From IMG/VR virus record IMGVR_UViG_3300020463_000093, positions 1 to 29,200 of that record: DNA of 29,200 nucleotides. One strand, 5' to 3'. Both the position numbers and the translations under genes were made by a program. This DNA comes from a virus. Under the pieces are notes generated by a model, which had not been told where the DNA came from, ran no database searches, and worked only from the letters and a program-made list of their open reading frames with translations. Below, piece by piece: positions 7,368-16,565 of this stretch (positions within the stretch are counted from its first letter, which is position 1; each line of letters starts with the position of its first letter).

Positions 7368-7399
7368 CTTGGTGCTCACATCAACCCAAGGAGGTCTAC

Positions 7400-9226
7400 A
7401 TGACACCAACGCAAACAGAGCTGCGTTCATGTCTCGGTATCACCGACTTCGCCAAACGTCGAGCGGCTATTCGCAAGCTGTTCTCACAGGTGGCAAGAGT
7501 TACCGAGATGCAAGAACTTATCGACACAGTCAAAGACGCACCGCCGAGCAAGGTTCCCAAGAGTGTTTGGGAAAAGCGCACAGCATCGTGCATTCGAGAC
7601 AACATGACAGTACCAACACTGTGTGTTTTGATCGAGCACGAGTTGGGAGAAGTCTGGCTGAACAAAACACGCTTAGCCATCACAGATCCAGACACCTACG
7701 CCGCCACAGGGCGTCGTGGTCTTTCATTCGCCGAGCATCACGACATCAGGCGTGAGTTCGACAAGATCTACGCAAGAACATCAACAGCAACATCGGAGAA
7801 GCCCATGAGCTTAACAGCCGCAATCAATGCGTTTGACTACGCACGTATCAACGGACTCGCAGACGACATGACCATCTGGTCAGATCTGGAAGCCGCAACC
7901 GACAGCGACACTGTCAATGGTGTCAAGGCACTCGTGTCGGTACGTGATGACAAGGACGCACCTCGCACCGAGGCAGACCTCAAAATCGAGGCCATGAGCA
8001 AAGAGGATATAGACCTCTACGCTAAGATCATCTCACGCATGTCAGAGGAGGCAGACGTCGAGGATACCAAGCCAACCGCGAGGGTATTGCTCAACCCACC
8101 TACCGATCCCGCGCTTATCAATCTCGCACTAGCGCAGTCTGGCTTGCCACCCATCGGCGAGATCATCGACGAGATGAACTCACTCTCAGACGAACTCACC
8201 AAGGCCGAGTCCGCACCTACCATGTCCGTCGCACCTGTAGCAGAAGAGGCCAAGGGTGACGGTACGATCCCTAGCGGTAGTCTCAAGACCAAGGAGGCGC
8301 ATGTAGCTTTCAATCTCTCGCGTGGCAAGAAGCAATTCAGCTTCAAGGTTCCGTGTTGGGAGTGGGATGCACCACATCCTCACGTGCCGGAGGTCGACGA
8401 GGATTACGTCTTCCGTCCGTTCGAGTTACTGCGTGTGCTTTACGCCATCATGACCAACCAACGGTGCTACCTTCACGGTCACACTGGTTCGGGCAAGACT
8501 ACGCTCGTGGAGCAAGTTGCCGCTCGTCTCAACTGGCCGTTCATGCGCATCAACTTCGACAGTGAGATCACTCGTATGGACTTGATCGGTCGTGACGTAC
8601 TCACCAATGACGGTGGTGTAACGTCTTCCAAGTTCGTCGACGGTATCCTTCCACAGATGATGTCTGGCCCGTACATTGGTTGTCTCGACGAGATAGACTT
8701 CGTGCGTCCAGACATTGCTTACGTCTTGCAACGTGCTCTTGAGGGCAACGGTCTCATGCTCACCGAGGATGGTGGTCGCATGGTCATGCCTCACAAGCTG
8801 TTCCGTATGTTCGGTACTGGCAATACCGTGGGTCAGGGTGACGAGTTCGGTCTCTATCAGGGTGCTCGTCCGCAGTCGATGGCATTCCTCGACCGCTTCA
8901 CCGTGTGGATCAAGGTCGACTACCTCAAGCCGTCTGATCGCTTGAAGCTCATCAAGGCACGTCTGCCAAAGCTCAGCGTAGACCACGTCAACAAGCTCAA
9001 CAGCTACATCACCGAGCATCTGGAAGCGTTCACCACATCCAAGGTCATGCAACCAATATCACCACGTGGATACCTCGCACTAGGTCAGGCCATGACCGCA
9101 TACATGTCCTTCATCGACGACGAGTCGAGGGCAGTCGAGGAGGCCATATCAACCACCATCCTTGACCGTGCGTCTGTCAATGACCGTGCGGTGCTCAAGG
9201 CAATCTATCAGCGAGTCTGGGGGTAA
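7400..9226 (+). CDS. CobS-like / MoxR-type AAA+ ATPase
   Basis: 608 aa, ATG with AAGGAGG 7 bases upstream. The C-terminal half is an AAA_5/MoxR-type ATPase: Walker A GHTGSGKT (360-367), Walker B CLDEID (Asp430-Glu431), sensor-1-like FGTGN near residue 471, and an FLDRF segment typical of CobS/MoxR. The N-terminal 330 or so residues are not recognised; they are helical and acidic, and far longer than in cobaltochelatase CobS. MoxR/CobS ATPases work with a VWA partner, and one follows two bases after the stop. In cobaltochelatase the pair powers cobalt insertion; no CobN or other cobalamin gene is here, so a remodelling or chaperone role on a phage or host target is more likely. Arg codons are mostly CGT, suggesting high expression. 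Confidence 0.9.
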   Translation: MTPTQTELRSCLGITDFAKRRAAIRKLFSQVARVTEMQELIDTVKDAPPSKVPKSVWEKRTASCIRDNMTVPTLCVLIEHELGEVWLNKTRLAITDPDTYAATGRRGLSFAEHHDIRREFDKIYARTSTATSEKPMSLTAAINAFDYARINGLADDMTIWSDLEAATDSDTVNGVKALVSVRDDKDAPRTEADLKIEAMSKEDIDLYAKIISRMSEEADVEDTKPTARVLLNPPTDPALINLALAQSGLPPIGEIIDEMNSLSDELTKAESAPTMSVAPVAEEAKGDGTIPSGSLKTKEAHVAFNLSRGKKQFSFKVPCWEWDAPHPHVPEVDEDYVFRPFELLRVLYAIMTNQRCYLHGHTGSGKTTLVEQVAARLNWPFMRINFDSEITRMDLIGRDVLTNDGGVTSSKFVDGILPQMMSGPYIGCLDEIDFVRPDIAYVLQRALEGNGLMLTEDGGRMVMPHKLFRMFGTGNTVGQGDEFGLYQGARPQSMAFLDRFTVWIKVDYLKPSDRLKLIKARLPKLSVDHVNKLNSYITEHLEAFTTSKVMQPISPRGYLALGQAMTAYMSFIDDESRAVEEAISTTILDRASVNDRAVLKAIYQRVWG

Positions 9227-9228
9227 TC

Positions 9229-11088
9229 ATGAAGACATCAACATTCGTAAACGAACTAACCAAATCATCCGCAGTGTTCGGACGCAAGCATGACGTCAAG
9301 GTTGTGTTCGCTGGCGACCAAGCGGCAACCAATGGCGAGACCATCAAGCTACCTGCGATTGACCGCAACAGCACCATGACAGACGAGCAGATGGATATTC
9401 TGCGCGGCTATGTCGATCACGAGTCTGGTCACGTCAAGCACACCAACCATGCGGCAGTGCAACGTCTTGCTCGTGAGTGTCAGTCCAAGGGTGACATGCA
9501 CCTCAAGTCTGTGTGGAATGCACTCGAAGACATCTGGCTTGAGCGTCGTGTTATCGAAGACTATCCCGGCGCGGCTCACAATCTCAGAGCCACGGCTACG
9601 GCAGTCAACAAGGAATATCTGCGAGCTGTCAAGAATGATCCAAGCATACCAACCAAGGATCGCGCCATCGGTGCGGTCGCTATCACATGGGAGGGTCGCA
9701 AGTCTTACGGCGGCGATACCTGTCAGGAGTGTATCGATACCGCAAGCGTAGACTTACAATCTGCGGTCAAGAAGTGGGTCGGCGCACTCGATCATTGCAA
9801 AACCACCGAAGACGTAATCGCGCTCGCTCGTGTGGTTGAGAAATCATTGCGCGACGAAGACTACAAGGAGGAGCCGGAAGATGGGCGAGGAGACGAACCA
9901 ACAGAGAACGACGAAGAGCGTGAAGATACAGGCGATGGTGAAGGACGAGGAGAACCCGTTCCCACTGACGATGACAATCACGAAGAAGAACGCAACGACG
10001 GCGGAGCTGATGAAACTAGCGACGACGACGCTGATCGGGATGAAGCTGGAGGCGGCCCCCGTGTTGATGACGATACTACCCACCCCGAAGAGGAAGACGT
10101 AACGCCCTACAATCCTGAGTTGCAAGACGCAATTACACGGATGTTCGAGCGTAACGAGTTCACTACAGGCGGTGATGGTTTCAGCTACACACCATGGACT
10201 GAGAAGGACACATGGCATCACCGCACGTTCAAGACGCGACACTCTGATCGTCTGCGTCATCTTACTGGCGCACACTATGACGACATGCTCAATCGTATGG
10301 CATCCGAAGCCAATAGTATGCGCTCCAAGCTCATGCGTTCGCTTATGTCCAAGCAGAAGCGTGACTGGGATTACGGTCGTGAGGACGGAAGACTTGACAC
10401 CCGACGCTTCACGCAAGCGTTCAATGGCAAGGCCAACGTGTTCAAGATGCGCACCGACAGGACGGAACTCGATACGGCAGTGACCGTGCTCGTAGACTTG
10501 AGCGGCAGCATGTGCTCCAAGATCTACCTTGCAACGCAGTGTTGCATTGCCATCTGCGAGACGTTGGAAAAAGCCAACATACCTTACGAGGTGCTCGGCT
10601 TCACCAATCCCTACGTCAGCCCACGTGACGGTGTTCATTACGACCGTGCGCAACCACTCGACATGTACATCTTCAAGCAGTTCGACGAGCGTTTGTTCGA
10701 TGCCAAGGGTGCGCTTGCTTCCATGGCTCACATGGCATTGGACGAGAACAGTGACGGTGACGCTATCGAGAAGGCTCACGACCGCTTGTTGCAACGACAA
10801 GAGCGACGTCGTGTGATGCTCGTGCTGTCGGATGGTCTACCCGCATGTGGTGGCGACCGTCGCAAGGTCGACAAGTACACACGTCAAGCTGTTGCTGATG
10901 CTGAGAAGTCTGGCACGGACATTATCGGTCTCGGCATCATGGATAACTCAGTCGAGCGTTACTACCCCAAGTACACTGTTATCAATGACATATCCGACCT
11001 TGCAGGTGCGGCCATGGATCAGCTTGCTCGTGCGCTTATCGGTGAGCGGTACATCGTGGATAACAGCAAGCTCTTGGACGTGTCATGA
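9229..11088 (+). CDS. CobT-like VWA-domain protein with HExxH motif
   Basis: 619 aa, starts two bases after the AAA+ gene stop. The N-terminal region contains HESGH (64-68) in YVDHESGHVKHT and, about 30 residues later, NALEDIWLE (97-105), the arrangement of a zincin metalloprotease helix pair. Residues 208-290 are an Asp/Glu-rich linker as in CobT. The C-terminal part is a VWA domain with MIDAS DLSGSM (423-428) and VLSDG near 532. All expected MIDAS residues in these two motifs are present. The VWA part should contact the AAA+ partner. Whether the zincin site is catalytic is unknown; similar motifs occur in CobT-like phage proteins as I recall them. Its stop overlaps the next start (ATGA). 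Confidence 0.88.
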   Translation: MKTSTFVNELTKSSAVFGRKHDVKVVFAGDQAATNGETIKLPAIDRNSTMTDEQMDILRGYVDHESGHVKHTNHAAVQRLARECQSKGDMHLKSVWNALEDIWLERRVIEDYPGAAHNLRATATAVNKEYLRAVKNDPSIPTKDRAIGAVAITWEGRKSYGGDTCQECIDTASVDLQSAVKKWVGALDHCKTTEDVIALARVVEKSLRDEDYKEEPEDGRGDEPTENDEEREDTGDGEGRGEPVPTDDDNHEEERNDGGADETSDDDADRDEAGGGPRVDDDTTHPEEEDVTPYNPELQDAITRMFERNEFTTGGDGFSYTPWTEKDTWHHRTFKTRHSDRLRHLTGAHYDDMLNRMASEANSMRSKLMRSLMSKQKRDWDYGREDGRLDTRRFTQAFNGKANVFKMRTDRTELDTAVTVLVDLSGSMCSKIYLATQCCIAICETLEKANIPYEVLGFTNPYVSPRDGVHYDRAQPLDMYIFKQFDERLFDAKGALASMAHMALDENSDGDAIEKAHDRLLQRQERRRVMLVLSDGLPACGGDRRKVDKYTRQAVADAEKSGTDIIGLGIMDNSVERYYPKYTVINDISDLAGAAMDQLARALIGERYIVDNSKLLDVS

Positions 11089-11270
11089 AGCGCGTCAAGG
11101 TACGCACTGAGTGGTATGTCCTACACCCCCGACGAGACATGCGCTTCTGGCTCGCTGTTGCACTGCGAGTCAAGACGCGGAGCGTTCGTCACAAGGATTT
11201 CAGCACGATCAAACAGATCTGCATGGAAGTCGACACCCAAATCAAACAACTGAAAGGAGAACTAACGTGA
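11085..11270 (+). CDS. Small basic hypothetical protein
   Basis: 61 aa, ATG overlapping the CobT-like stop (ATGA) and its own stop overlapping the next GTG start (GTGA). Strongly basic, with Arg/Lys through the whole chain and a hydrophobic FWLAVALRV stretch too short for a confident membrane helix. The coupling on both sides argues that it is translated. Family not recognised. A nucleic-acid or partner-binding adaptor for the AAA+/VWA pair is possible but unproven. Confidence 0.6.
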   Translation: MKRVKVRTEWYVLHPRRDMRFWLAVALRVKTRSVRHKDFSTIKQICMEVDTQIKQLKGELT

Positions 11271-11788
11271 ATATATTTTTCGTTGACGACAACCCCAAGA
11301 TTGCCGCGCAATCATTGGGTGACAAGCATATCGGTAAGATGCTCGTCGAGTCTGCACAGATGTTGTTCACCGCCGTGCGTCAGCACGGATACGACGGCGG
11401 CGGTTACAAGTCTGCGTATGAGCATCACCCCATGACCAAGTGGGTAGCCAAGTCTTACTTACATGCACAGTGGTTGCTTGACCATGCTATCGAACTCGCC
11501 AAGGAATTTGAGCTACGGTACAACCACGAGCACAAGACCAAGTCTATGTTGCCCGTGCTCAGCATGGCGGTGCATCACCACATGCCAGACGAGACATGGC
11601 GTAACCCACCTCGCTGTATGCCAGACATCTACAAGATTGAGTTTGACGCATGGCGTGGTGAAATTCCTTGCCACGTTGCTTCGTACCGTGACTTCTACAG
11701 GTGCGAGAAAACTACGTGCCATGTGTATACCAATCGACAAGCACCTGACTGGCTCACGGAGGTAATCGACGAGGTTTCCCATGACTGA
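11267..11788 (+). CDS. Conserved phage protein (DKHxxKMxxExAQ family)
   Basis: 173 aa. The GTG at 11267 is chosen because AAAGGAG lies 8 bases upstream and it overlaps the previous stop (GTGA); the longer upstream frame has no support. The N-terminal pattern FFVDDNPKIAAQSLGDKHIG plus KMLVESAQML, a later HPMTKWVA segment, and PPRCMPD before an aromatic C-terminus match a widespread phage protein family as I remember it. It has sometimes been annotated by remote similarity as a pyrimidine-dimer glycosylase-like protein, but I do not rely on that. Many conserved His, Asp and Trp residues suggest an enzyme. Part of the overlapping early operon. Confidence 0.75.
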   Translation: MNIFFVDDNPKIAAQSLGDKHIGKMLVESAQMLFTAVRQHGYDGGGYKSAYEHHPMTKWVAKSYLHAQWLLDHAIELAKEFELRYNHEHKTKSMLPVLSMAVHHHMPDETWRNPPRCMPDIYKIEFDAWRGEIPCHVASYRDFYRCEKTTCHVYTNRQAPDWLTEVIDEVSHD

Positions 11789-12618: not shown

Positions 12619-12779
12619 AACTACGGAGTGACCCCAGACGTCGTGAGCAGATCAACGTCTGCTTAGAGACGTTCGAGTGGATACTCCACGAAGAAATGGA
12701 GGAGTCCGAAACTATGAGCCAGCTTCACGAGCTGGCTTGGAAGTTAGTCAACTTAACACGAGAGGAAGAAGACACATGA
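12615..12779 (+). CDS. Small acidic hypothetical protein (54 aa)
   Basis: 54 aa read directly from the sequence: begins MKLRSDPRRREQINVC and ends LTREEEDT. The ATG overlaps the previous stop (ATGA) and its stop overlaps the next start (ATGA). The N-terminus is basic and the rest acidic and helical (FEWILHEEMEE, HELAWKLVNL). The double coupling and the exact fit in the gap support a real gene. Function unknown. Confidence 0.65.
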   Translation: MKLRSDPRRREQINVCLETFEWILHEEMEESETMSQLHELAWKLVNLTREEEDT

Positions 12780-13957
12780 GCTACGAAGACACGAGCCTGT
12801 ACAACCTAATGTTAGCCGCACTGTCTGCACCGAAGAGGGGGTTTCACGCCCCCTGTTTCGGTGTGAAGAACAAAAGTTTTAACAAGATCGTTGACCGTGA
12901 GGTGAGAACCCTACGCGCAGACTTGATAGGAGCACAGCGTTTCATAGTGCAGCCAAGTCTGATGCGTCACGCTGCGATGGCAAGTCTTGTGCCACCCGAA
13001 CGTCTGCTCGATATGTTTTCTGTCGGGCGACCATGCTTTGACAACCTATGGATTGAGTGGGAAGACGCCAGACGTGTGCCTATTCTGTTCGAGTGTATGG
13101 AAGAGATGGGCATGGAGATCACACAGGAACAAGACCCTAGCCAATGGGTTGCCAAGATAGGTTTTCATATCACGAGCAACGAGCCACACGGACAGGGTTG
13201 GTTGTGCCAACAGTATGCTCTGATCGATGGCAAGATCGGGAGTCCAGAGTGGGCGGTCAACTTCACATGTGATGAGCCATTCGATAGGAAAAGACTTGCG
13301 GATCTGTCTTTCTCCAAAAGGTCAGACACGGGGTTTGAGTCGCACGGTGTGAGTGCCACGGATATTGAGGACATGATGGGTGAGCAGGGGCCGTTGTTAA
13401 TCGGTGCGCCATACACGAAGCACTGGAGTCAACAACGTCGCCGACCAATGACAGACGTCTTCCATCGCGTCACCATGACGCTTGGTACATTCTCGTCCTT
13501 GCAACTCAAGTACAACACCGCATCAGTGGCCACCCATGCAGACCAGATGAAGGTTCACAAAGATTCCCAACAGGGAGCACTTCTCGCATGGACAGGTGAC
13601 ATTCGCTACCTGATGGCGGTACTTGCACTGGTCAACTATCCGCACACAGTAGTGGAGCGTGACCAGATCGAAACCAAGCTACGGTCGATGGCATGGGGTC
13701 AACGTGTGCCTCGCAATGAGGTCAGACTTCTCGACATAGACTTACCAAAACCACGTGGAACAACACGCTACGAGAAGATGTTCAAGGGCGGTGGCGCACC
13801 CAAGCGTCGGCACGTCAGACGTGGGCATTGGCGCAGACTCAAGCACAAGGACGGAACATTCACAACCAAGTGGATCGAAGAGCAATGGGTCGGCAACGCA
13901 GACTTAGGAACAATCATTCACGACTATAACTTGAAATCAAAGGAGAACAGAGCATGA
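12776..13957 (+). CDS. Hypothetical phage protein with basic C-terminal region
   Basis: 393 aa from ATG 12776 (GAGAGGAAGAAG upstream, ATGA overlap). An in-frame upstream ATG would run through the 54-aa gene and is not preferred. The central region is mixed alpha/beta with several Trp and a Cys pair far apart. The C-terminal 60 residues have the pattern RHVRRGHWRRLKHKDGTF and WIEEQWVGN; the HVRRGHWR / W...W(V/R)G(N/D) ending is a recurrent phage and mobile-element motif of unknown function that I recognise only by pattern. Basic C-terminus suggests nucleic-acid contact. In a run of overlapping genes with no lytic or structural hallmark. Confidence 0.75.
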   Translation: MSYEDTSLYNLMLAALSAPKRGFHAPCFGVKNKSFNKIVDREVRTLRADLIGAQRFIVQPSLMRHAAMASLVPPERLLDMFSVGRPCFDNLWIEWEDARRVPILFECMEEMGMEITQEQDPSQWVAKIGFHITSNEPHGQGWLCQQYALIDGKIGSPEWAVNFTCDEPFDRKRLADLSFSKRSDTGFESHGVSATDIEDMMGEQGPLLIGAPYTKHWSQQRRRPMTDVFHRVTMTLGTFSSLQLKYNTASVATHADQMKVHKDSQQGALLAWTGDIRYLMAVLALVNYPHTVVERDQIETKLRSMAWGQRVPRNEVRLLDIDLPKPRGTTRYEKMFKGGGAPKRRHVRRGHWRRLKHKDGTFTTKWIEEQWVGNADLGTIIHDYNLKSKENRA

Positions 13958-15214: not shown

Positions 15215-15485
15215 TGGTTGCTCTAACTCAGAAATAGCTAAGCGTTTTGATGTGTCGGAAGACACAGCCAAAGTCTACGTGCGGACAATAGCCAAGAAGT
15301 ATGAGGTTAATACACGTGCGCAGATTGTGATGGCTACCTTGGAAGAATTTAACAGCCTCGACGATGATGTCTACATGAGGATCAGTGGTGGACTGCCAAA
15401 AGATTGGCACTCTAACTTCCAAGATCCAGATCCATTCGCCGAGCTATACAGGACGAAGAAACATGAGCCTAAACCTAAGACTTAG
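14994..15485 (+). CDS. LuxR-type HTH regulator
   Basis: 163 aa from TTG 14994; the ribosome site GGAG 6 bases upstream supports this start and the next in-frame Met is 33 residues later. Residues 1-35 are helical and may pair subunits. Residues 61-116 form a GerE/LuxR-type helix-turn-helix: LTTKQHGALQMLLDGCSNSE, then IAKRFDVSEDTAKVYVRTIAKK. There is no autoinducer-binding or receiver domain, so it is a stand-alone DNA-binding protein, as in phage regulators. Its stop overlaps the integrase start by 23 bases, so the two are translated together. A role controlling integrase expression, or as a recombination directionality or repressor factor, is inferred from position. Confidence 0.8.
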   Translation: MTERNLNDLYELVEGQYEQIKLLTRAVNTYLDVMQTQEQSPAVRQTETILQGHPSNTLYKLTTKQHGALQMLLDGCSNSEIAKRFDVSEDTAKVYVRTIAKKYEVNTRAQIVMATLEEFNSLDDDVYMRISGGLPKDWHSNFQDPDPFAELYRTKKHEPKPKT

Positions 15486-16485
15486 GGGTGACGTCTGGCA
15501 AGTACAGGGAACCGTCAAAACTTTGACGGGTTCAACTGTTCGCGTCAGAAAATCGACGGGTTTTACCAAGCCTGAGAAGCGTTACGCTCAAGTTGTCATG
15601 AGCAAGATCATAGAAGACGCAATGACTGGACGTCTGGAAGACAAGTCTGGAGTCGAGTACGTTGCCGACGCCTGTGATGCTTACATATCTCGGCCCAGTC
15701 CGCCGGGGGATACAGACGTCAGAATTGTTGAGCAAATCAAGTCTGCCCTTGGGCGGATCAAGCTGAGCAAGATTACTCTGGCGGATTTTACGATGCACTT
15801 CGCCACTCGTGGCGTTGCGGCCAATACATTAGCACGAGAAATGACGAGCGCGAATGCCATGTTGAATCATGCACGAGCAATCGGTATGGACGTGCCAGAT
15901 ATTAATCTCAAGAAACCTTCTTACGATGATGCCAGAAGTAGGTGGTTATATAAGGAGGAAATGGAGGCTTTAATTGAGGCGTCTCCAGACGAGATTGAAA
16001 GTCTTGTTGCCTTTCTCTTCTTCACTGGCGCAAGACTAGGGGAAGCGACCTCCCTGTTGTGGAGAGACGTGGTTGACGAGTCAGCTATTTTCTCCTCACG
16101 AAAGGGTCGCTCGAAGAAGATAAGACGTCGGGCGGTCAAGCTGTCACCTTACCTTCTCTCTTTAATAGGTGAGCGGCAGGGATCGAACGACTATGTCTTT
16201 ACAAATACTGTCGGTAGCAAGTGGGATAGAAGTAATTTCTATACTTATTTCCGTCCTGCTTGCGAAGCGGCACACATTAAAGACTTCACACCCCATGATT
16301 GCAGACACACGTTTGCAAGCCACCTCGTACAGAAAGGAGCCAGTCTTAGAGCGGTGGCAGACTTATTAGGACACTCAAGTTTACAGATGGTCATGCGTTA
16401 TGCGCACCTTGCACCTTCACACCTTGAGAGTACGGTGAGTCTCTTATGGGACACCGACACAAATGAGACACACACCTATGTTTAA
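15463..16485 (+). CDS. int: Tyrosine recombinase / phage integrase
   Basis: 340 aa from ATG 15463 (overlapping the LuxR-like gene; a longer frame upstream is not needed). Catalytic site by alignment to the family: Arg191 (TGARLGE), Lys214 (SRKGRSKK, beta-hairpin Lys), His278 and Arg281 (HDCRH), His304 (LLGHSS) and the nucleophile Tyr313 (MRYAHL). Residues 1-55 look like an arm-binding domain with a beta fold and 65-155 like the SAM-like core-binding domain. Length is usual for phage integrases. It lies immediately before a complete tRNA-Thr gene on the opposite strand, 5 bases from its 3' end, which points to tRNA-Thr as the attachment target. Confidence 0.96.
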   Translation: MSLNLRLRGDVWQVQGTVKTLTGSTVRVRKSTGFTKPEKRYAQVVMSKIIEDAMTGRLEDKSGVEYVADACDAYISRPSPPGDTDVRIVEQIKSALGRIKLSKITLADFTMHFATRGVAANTLAREMTSANAMLNHARAIGMDVPDINLKKPSYDDARSRWLYKEEMEALIEASPDEIESLVAFLFFTGARLGEATSLLWRDVVDESAIFSSRKGRSKKIRRRAVKLSPYLLSLIGERQGSNDYVFTNTVGSKWDRSNFYTYFRPACEAAHIKDFTPHDCRHTFASHLVQKGASLRAVADLLGHSSLQMVMRYAHLAPSHLESTVSLLWDTDTNETHTYV

Positions 16486-16490
16486 GGGTG

Positions 16491-16565
16491 TGGTGCTGAC
16501 GGGGAGGATTGAACTCCCGACCTATTCGTTACCAACGAATTGCTCTACCACTGAGCTACGTCAGC
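16491..16565 (-). tRNA. tRNA-Thr (anticodon GGT)
   Basis: A complete cloverleaf on the minus strand: acceptor GCTGACG/CGTCAGC, D stem GCTC/GAGC, anticodon stem ATTCG/CGAAT with loop TTGGTAA, T stem GGGAG/CTCCC with loop TTCAATC, discriminator A and encoded CCA (16491-16493). Anticodon at 16531-16533 on the plus strand (ACC). No stem mismatch. Directly beside the integrase gene. Either a phage-carried copy that keeps the host tRNA functional on integration (attP), or a real host tRNA at an attachment junction. Confidence 0.97.

Follow-up and report, generated by a model that had tools for sequence, protein, structure and literature searches.

Motors of the MoxR clade of AAA+ ATPases work together with VWA co-chaperones that capture a client peptide (PMC7159879), and in jumbo phage Atu_ph07 an AAA+ protein (ASV44729) is encoded beside a VWA protein with an N-terminal metallopeptidase-type domain (ASV44728; PMC7824862). 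With regard to the aerobic cobaltochelatase subunits CobS and CobT, it has been proposed that their phage counterparts (CobST) hijack the CobN of the host, and the peptidase annotation of cyanophage cobT has been called mistaken (PMC8651126, Liu et al. 2021). Here we describe a gene pair related to these systems in a window of 29,200 bases, the IMG/VR virus record IMGVR_UViG_3300020463_000093, which encodes a CobS-like ATPase followed by a CobT-like protein with a zinc-peptidase motif. The pair is homologous to the cobaltochelatase family but is not a member of it by curated cut-offs and CobN, and it probably constitutes a split ATP-driven AAA+/zincin-VWA unfoldase-protease.

This pair is not unique, being present in Roseobacter phage CRP-810 and in hundreds of tailed phages, where it is mostly annotated as cobaltochelatase; homologues are also carried by phage-plasmids and bacterial genomes, and the genes are widely known under that name. 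What is new here is the pairing as anchored on the ATPase, the motif contrast with genuine CobT, the predicted fold, the absence of CobN and the gene neighbourhood. CRP-810 gp06/gp07 (‘cobaltochelatase CobS/CobT’) resemble the window in gene order and in the long N-terminal extension of the ATPase, with 48.5% identity over 99% for the ATPase and 49.8% over 87% for its partner, which has HEAGH and a metal ion-dependent adhesion site (MIDAS). An endonuclease V gene, a LuxR-type gene and an integrase lie nearby, as in the window, and CRP-810 is a true relative that differs by annotation only.

Organization of the gene pair

Both open reading frames (ORFs) were found at the coordinates given beforehand, and their two-base spacing, from the ATPase stop to the CobT-like ATG, can be read directly from the sequence. 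The motifs named in an earlier interpretation of this DNA made without database searches (hereafter the sequence-only reading) all lie at the residues it gave, and the following features were recognized:

7388-7394, + strand: Shine-Dalgarno-like AAGGAGG, read directly, 5 bases upstream of the ATPase ATG
7400-9226, + strand: CobS-like MoxR-clade AAA+ ATPase, 608 residues (AAA_5 2.9e-16; TIGR01650 CobS 3.9e-49; phrog_249 1.2e-51)
7400-8341, + strand: ATPase N-terminal extension, about residues 1-314 (AlphaFold2; predicted local distance difference test, pLDDT, 86.9; predicted template modelling score, pTM, 0.51)
8477-8500, + strand: Walker A GHTGSGKT, ATPase residues 360-367
8684-8698, + strand: Walker B LDEID, ATPase residues 429-433 (DE at 430-431)
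9229-11088, + strand: CobT-like protein, 619 residues, with zincin-like N-domain, acidic linker and VWA domain (PF06213 1.1e-17; PF11775 1.5e-27; TIGR01651 2.1e-45; phrog_1576 2.9e-71)
9229-9864, + strand: predicted gluzincin-like N-domain, about residues 1-212 (AlphaFold2, pLDDT 94.2, pTM 0.89; VIA-align)
9418-9432, + strand: HESGH, residues 64-68, predicted zinc-binding and catalytic motif in helix 52-71
9517-9543, + strand: NALEDIWLE, residues 97-105, in helix 90-111, with E100 the likely third zinc ligand
9850-10128, + strand: acidic low-complexity linker, residues 208-300, 45% D/E
10438-11037, + strand: VWA domain, residues 404-603 (PF11775 CobT_C)
10495-10512, + strand: MIDAS DLSGSM, residues 423-428

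The CobT-like protein matches Pfam CobT (PF06213, residues 6-271) and CobT_C (PF11775, residues 404-603) along its length, and the TIGR01650 CobS match spans residues 315-608 of the ATPase, the N-terminal half of which has no match in Pfam, PHROG or NCBIfam, as the sequence-only reading had supposed. A MoxR-clade AAA+ protein thus adjoins a VWA protein with an intact MIDAS, which is the arrangement of a MoxR AAA+/VWA chaperone couple. PADLOC recognized no defence system, giving at most weak matches to the ATPase only. By composition alone, HExxH is expected 0.04 times in the CobT-like protein, and a chance origin of the motif is untenable because it is conserved across diverse viruses.

Distribution and conservation

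In order to avoid circularity, the partner gene was sought from the ATPase alone, a CobT-based search having used the HExxH pattern itself. A CobT-like gene was present at 57 of 62 non-redundant viral loci anchored on the CobS-like ATPase, the ATPase lying at a contig end in all five others; 56 of these 57 genes are on the same strand as the ATPase and within 1.3 kb of it. HExxH followed by ED...E was observed in 55 of the 56 partners long enough to judge, including one with a one-residue insertion in HExxH (L137). Column counts over 64 anchored partners gave H64, E65 and H68 in 62 each, the other two being gaps, and E100 in 62. In viruses, therefore, the two genes almost always occur together, and the zincin motif hardly varies. 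An alignment of the whole proteins offered no stretch conserved enough to be scanned for in contigs.

Phages of Vibrio (ICP2), Rhizobium, Stenotrophomonas, Salmonella, Klebsiella and E. coli carry distant homologues, and haloarchaeal and Gordonia viruses carry homologues recognized by fold (BFVD). A divergent relative is the cyanophage ‘peptidase’ T4-GC 146 (for example in P-SSM2), which has HEVGH, NVCEDVRIE and a VWA domain with DWSGSM; it shows 17% identity, sits on a long branch and is missed by Pfam CobT, and at least 80% of its length is matched in 459 phage records. In P-SSM2 ‘cobS’ (T4-GC 150) lies three genes downstream of T4-GC 146, in a replication cluster. HExxH-type CobT-like genes were also seen in bacterial genomes (L283, L284, L285, L287 and L288); for L285, L287 and L288 the 12 kb covered contained no CobS-like gene. 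A paper on plasmid Kp1604 leaves the genes of the pair unmentioned.

The N-terminal extension of the ATPase is common to marine relatives and absent from ATPases of the SSU5 and ICP2 types (370-450 residues), and because of this distribution it is likely to be a clade-specific adaptor. In the AlphaFold2 model it consists of helical regions 3-127 and 138-218 and a helical segment 238-271, with a low-confidence link, and Foldseek of the ATPase N-terminal half returned unrelated helical proteins only, with no fold match.

Relation to cobaltochelatase

The pair belongs to the CobT/CobS homologous superfamily, with Pfam scores well over the gathering cut-offs (PF06213, 64.9 bits against 26.1; PF11775, 97.1 against 21; AAA_5, 60.2 against 22), and it shares with the aerobic cobaltochelatase (PDB 9uka series) end-to-end homology, the acidic linker, the MIDAS and the AAA+ core. 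On the other hand, the NCBIfam equivalog cut-offs are not reached, either for TIGR01650 CobS (167.6 versus 558.55 bits) or for TIGR01651 CobT (155.5 versus 759.05 bits), and chelatase CobS lacks the extension of about 315 residues found in the window ATPase. Chelatase CobT, whose partner is CobN, has no HExxH: the motif was absent from the zincin site in all 80 genuine bacterial CobT proteins, retrieved with the solved CobT as query and aligned over the same domain, whereas the phage protein keeps it. The profiles of the two N-domains, aligned with each other (E 1.5e-9), show no gap across the motif and set chelatase DSMALR opposite viral DHESGH, with E100 and E105 kept in genuine CobT and N97/D101 replaced by D/Q. 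Phmmer and the anchoring RG..D residues likewise put SMALR opposite HESGH; a MAFFT pairing of HDxxxH of genuine CobT with HESGH was rejected on the strength of these three lines, and the MAFFT columns for H64 and H68 in cellular sequences were left unused. HExxH does occur at another place in genuine CobT (two matches, position 44) and in L282 (one match, position 195), and these matches are attributed to chance.

One reading of the pair is that of a viral cobaltochelatase helper, in which phage CobST would act with host CobN to boost cobalamin for B12 enzymes such as class II ribonucleotide reductase (RNR), as PMC8651126 has it. The end-to-end homology to CobS and CobT speaks for it, as does a class II (B12-dependent) RNR above cut-off in one of 27 related phage records holding the pair, that of a Cobavirinae phage; NrdJ had no match in CRP-810 or the closest large relatives. 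A nearby CobN homologue was the finding that the sequence-only reading had named as telling against itself, and no CobN (PF02514) was detected in the window or in the 27 records, a negative that covers the 29-kb record and the phage records and leaves a host copy possible. The Cyrano/SSU5-type CobT-like gene occurs in 219 of 5,426 complete E. coli genomes, always on a plasmid and never on the chromosome, so that E. coli phage-plasmids retain the pair even though the E. coli genome among 14 control genomes had no CobN match. These CobN, E. coli and RNR results argue against CobN hijack as a general explanation, although it may hold for particular hosts, and with scores far under the equivalog cut-offs, HExxH kept by phages and lacking in every chelatase tested, and no cobalamin family in the 25 neighbour families shown, a helper role is very unlikely. 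The view of the sequence-only reading that the cobalamin name misleads is in line with this evidence.

In a sample of Pseudomonadota, 39 of the 128 genomes with a strong CobT match, some of them maybe incomplete, had no CobN match, and the control genome of Caulobacter vibrioides likewise had a CobT match and no CobN match. Cellular CobST, too, may act outside cobalamin.

In a quick tree of the VWA domain, the root and deep branches of which are weak, chelatase-type CobT forms a single clade with a long stem (Shimodaira-Hasegawa-like approximate likelihood ratio test, SH-aLRT, 100) within a larger HExxH-bearing viral set (support 85-88). Loss of the zincin site on the chelatase stem would be the simplest reading of this pattern.

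Predicted structure of the N-domain

For AlphaFold2, an alignment of 78 N-domains was used, drawn entirely from the window and viral loci. A fold with HESGH outside a zincin arrangement had been named in the sequence-only reading as a refutation of it; the model instead sets HESGH (helix 52-71) and E100/D101/E105 on consecutive helices, N97 also lying in the second, long helix 90-111. As judged from motif and helix placement only, this is the gluzincin arrangement of an HExxH helix with a glutamate on the following helix. When Foldseek candidates were compared by VIA-align, metallopeptidases or their relatives held the first 26 places (Z 4.3-5.7), with selecase, DUF885, M48, ZMPSTE24, ERAP2, IRAP, abylysin, jannalysin and LTA4H among the best rows. 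Matches in BFVD were other phage CobT/VWFA proteins. The solved CobT is absent from the Foldseek and VIA-align rows, which is uninformative, and a match of the zincin-domain profile to the anti-CRISPR protein AcrIIA26 (PDB 9zq6_B, E 1.6e-4) is confined to the NxxEDxxxE..YxG stretch and is likely a coincidence. A zincin is suggested by the motif, by the position of the helices and by the structural matches all being of one kind.

Gene neighbourhood

Downstream of the pair the window encodes a pyrimidine-dimer glycosylase, a LuxR-type regulator and an integrase, the first of these being:

11267-11788, + strand: pyrimidine-dimer DNA glycosylase, denV-like (PF03013 1.3e-08; phrog_624), also following the pair directly in CRP-810

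The named families met most often among 150 neighbours, taken from diverse relatives, were regulators, sigma factors, the phrog_624 pyrimidine-dimer glycosylase, replication proteins, DNA polymerases and integrases, and the top 25 neighbour families shown included no named virion family. This bears on a proposal taken from the jumbo-phage pair, namely that the two proteins act as a chaperone in virion assembly and process structural proteins by proteolysis (PMC7824862). The same architecture is present in both pairs, and MoxR-VWA pairs have been reported to aid in assembling complexes, including the tail of an archaeal virus (PMC7824862). The proposal is weakened, however, because the neighbourhood is one of replication, transcription, repair and integration for the most part, without named virion families; moreover, the terminase and portal genes of the window are on the opposite strand, with small unrelated ORFs between them and the pair. 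The jumbo-phage pair is also a different family, since ASV44728 has the DUF2201_N and DUF2201 domains (PF13203 and PF09967), neither of which is found in the window protein, carries HQILH in place of HExxH and is not truly matched by the CobT-like profile. A role in virion assembly is accordingly judged improbable. ASV44728 (L298:33254-34543) is the published metallopeptidase-VWA exemplar, and with HQILH it may itself be catalytically dead.

At 15460-16565 the end of a tyrosine integrase gene lies 5 bases from an opposite-strand tRNA-Thr(ggt); the tRNA site is likely the attachment site and the virus is probably temperate. A 426-residue ORF on the + strand (12677-13957) has a 398-residue part without a PHROG match.

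Proposed function

The remodelling pair with a possible zinc-protease VWA subunit that the sequence-only reading had inferred is supported by sequence and predicted fold alike. According to the mechanism proposed here, the CobS-like protein would form a ring motor, presumably hexameric, on which the CobT-like partner would dock and capture a client protein through its VWA/MIDAS domain; the gluzincin-type zinc domain (HExxH and E100), tethered past the flexible acidic linker, would then cleave the remodelled client. The pair would probably act while the phage grows lytically, on a protein of host or phage that takes part in DNA replication, transcription or repair, and cobalt insertion would not be its role, CobT being a relative that had lost the zincin site. 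In FtsH-type AAA+ metalloproteases an ATPase motor is coupled to an HExxH zinc protease in one chain, whereas motor and protease of the phage pair are separate proteins that would join via the VWA domain. Regarding timing, the pair is missing from one list of lysogen-expressed genes (PMC9928086).

Several observations weigh against this unfoldase-protease. In Stenotrophomonas phage ANB28 DREVST replaces DHExxH, and in Vibrio phage ICP2 the ED pair is gone although HECYH is retained; because motif residues are lost in these few, some family members may function without catalysis, and an inactive zincin can still serve as a binding domain. The VIA-align scores, at Z of 5.7 or below, are in the range that the tool calls common, each weak by itself, and by Foldseek the N-domain had no significant hit in the PDB. 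The lytic timing, for its part, is deduced from the neighbourhood and the list mentioned above.

The strongest rival is a non-catalytic zincin, given the motif losses in a few members and the fact that genuine CobT works without the motif. The pair would then be a remodeller only, a chaperone that, for example, dismantles or assembles a complex, and its zincin domain would bind zinc or peptide in a structural role, without cleavage. Genuine CobT, a remodelling subunit without HExxH, offers a precedent, and natural members with damaged motifs occur; yet H64, E65, H68 and E100 are near-invariant across very divergent viruses, as is typical of catalysis, and zinc binding alone would not require E65. 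We regard this rival as unlikely.

Implications

Phage cobS and cobT are usually taken as cobalamin ‘auxiliary metabolic genes’, and the present evidence points the opposite way. Few features of the viral proteins are as well conserved as the peptidase motif, which the B12 enzyme lacks, in contrast to the view put forward in PMC8651126. It is conceivable, although we hold it to be doubtful, that a mobile two-component AAA+ protease not described before, carried by tailed phages, phage-plasmids and further mobile elements, in which a CobS-type ring feeds a VWA-tethered gluzincin acting on host or phage replication proteins, was the ancestor of chelatase CobT, through loss of the protease site and gain of CobN. 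If the reading of the pair as an unfoldase-protease is true, an ecological marker in wide use has been misinterpreted, E. coli phage-plasmids would give access to a novel kind of AAA+ protease, and it would become possible to trace how a B12 enzyme subunit arose.

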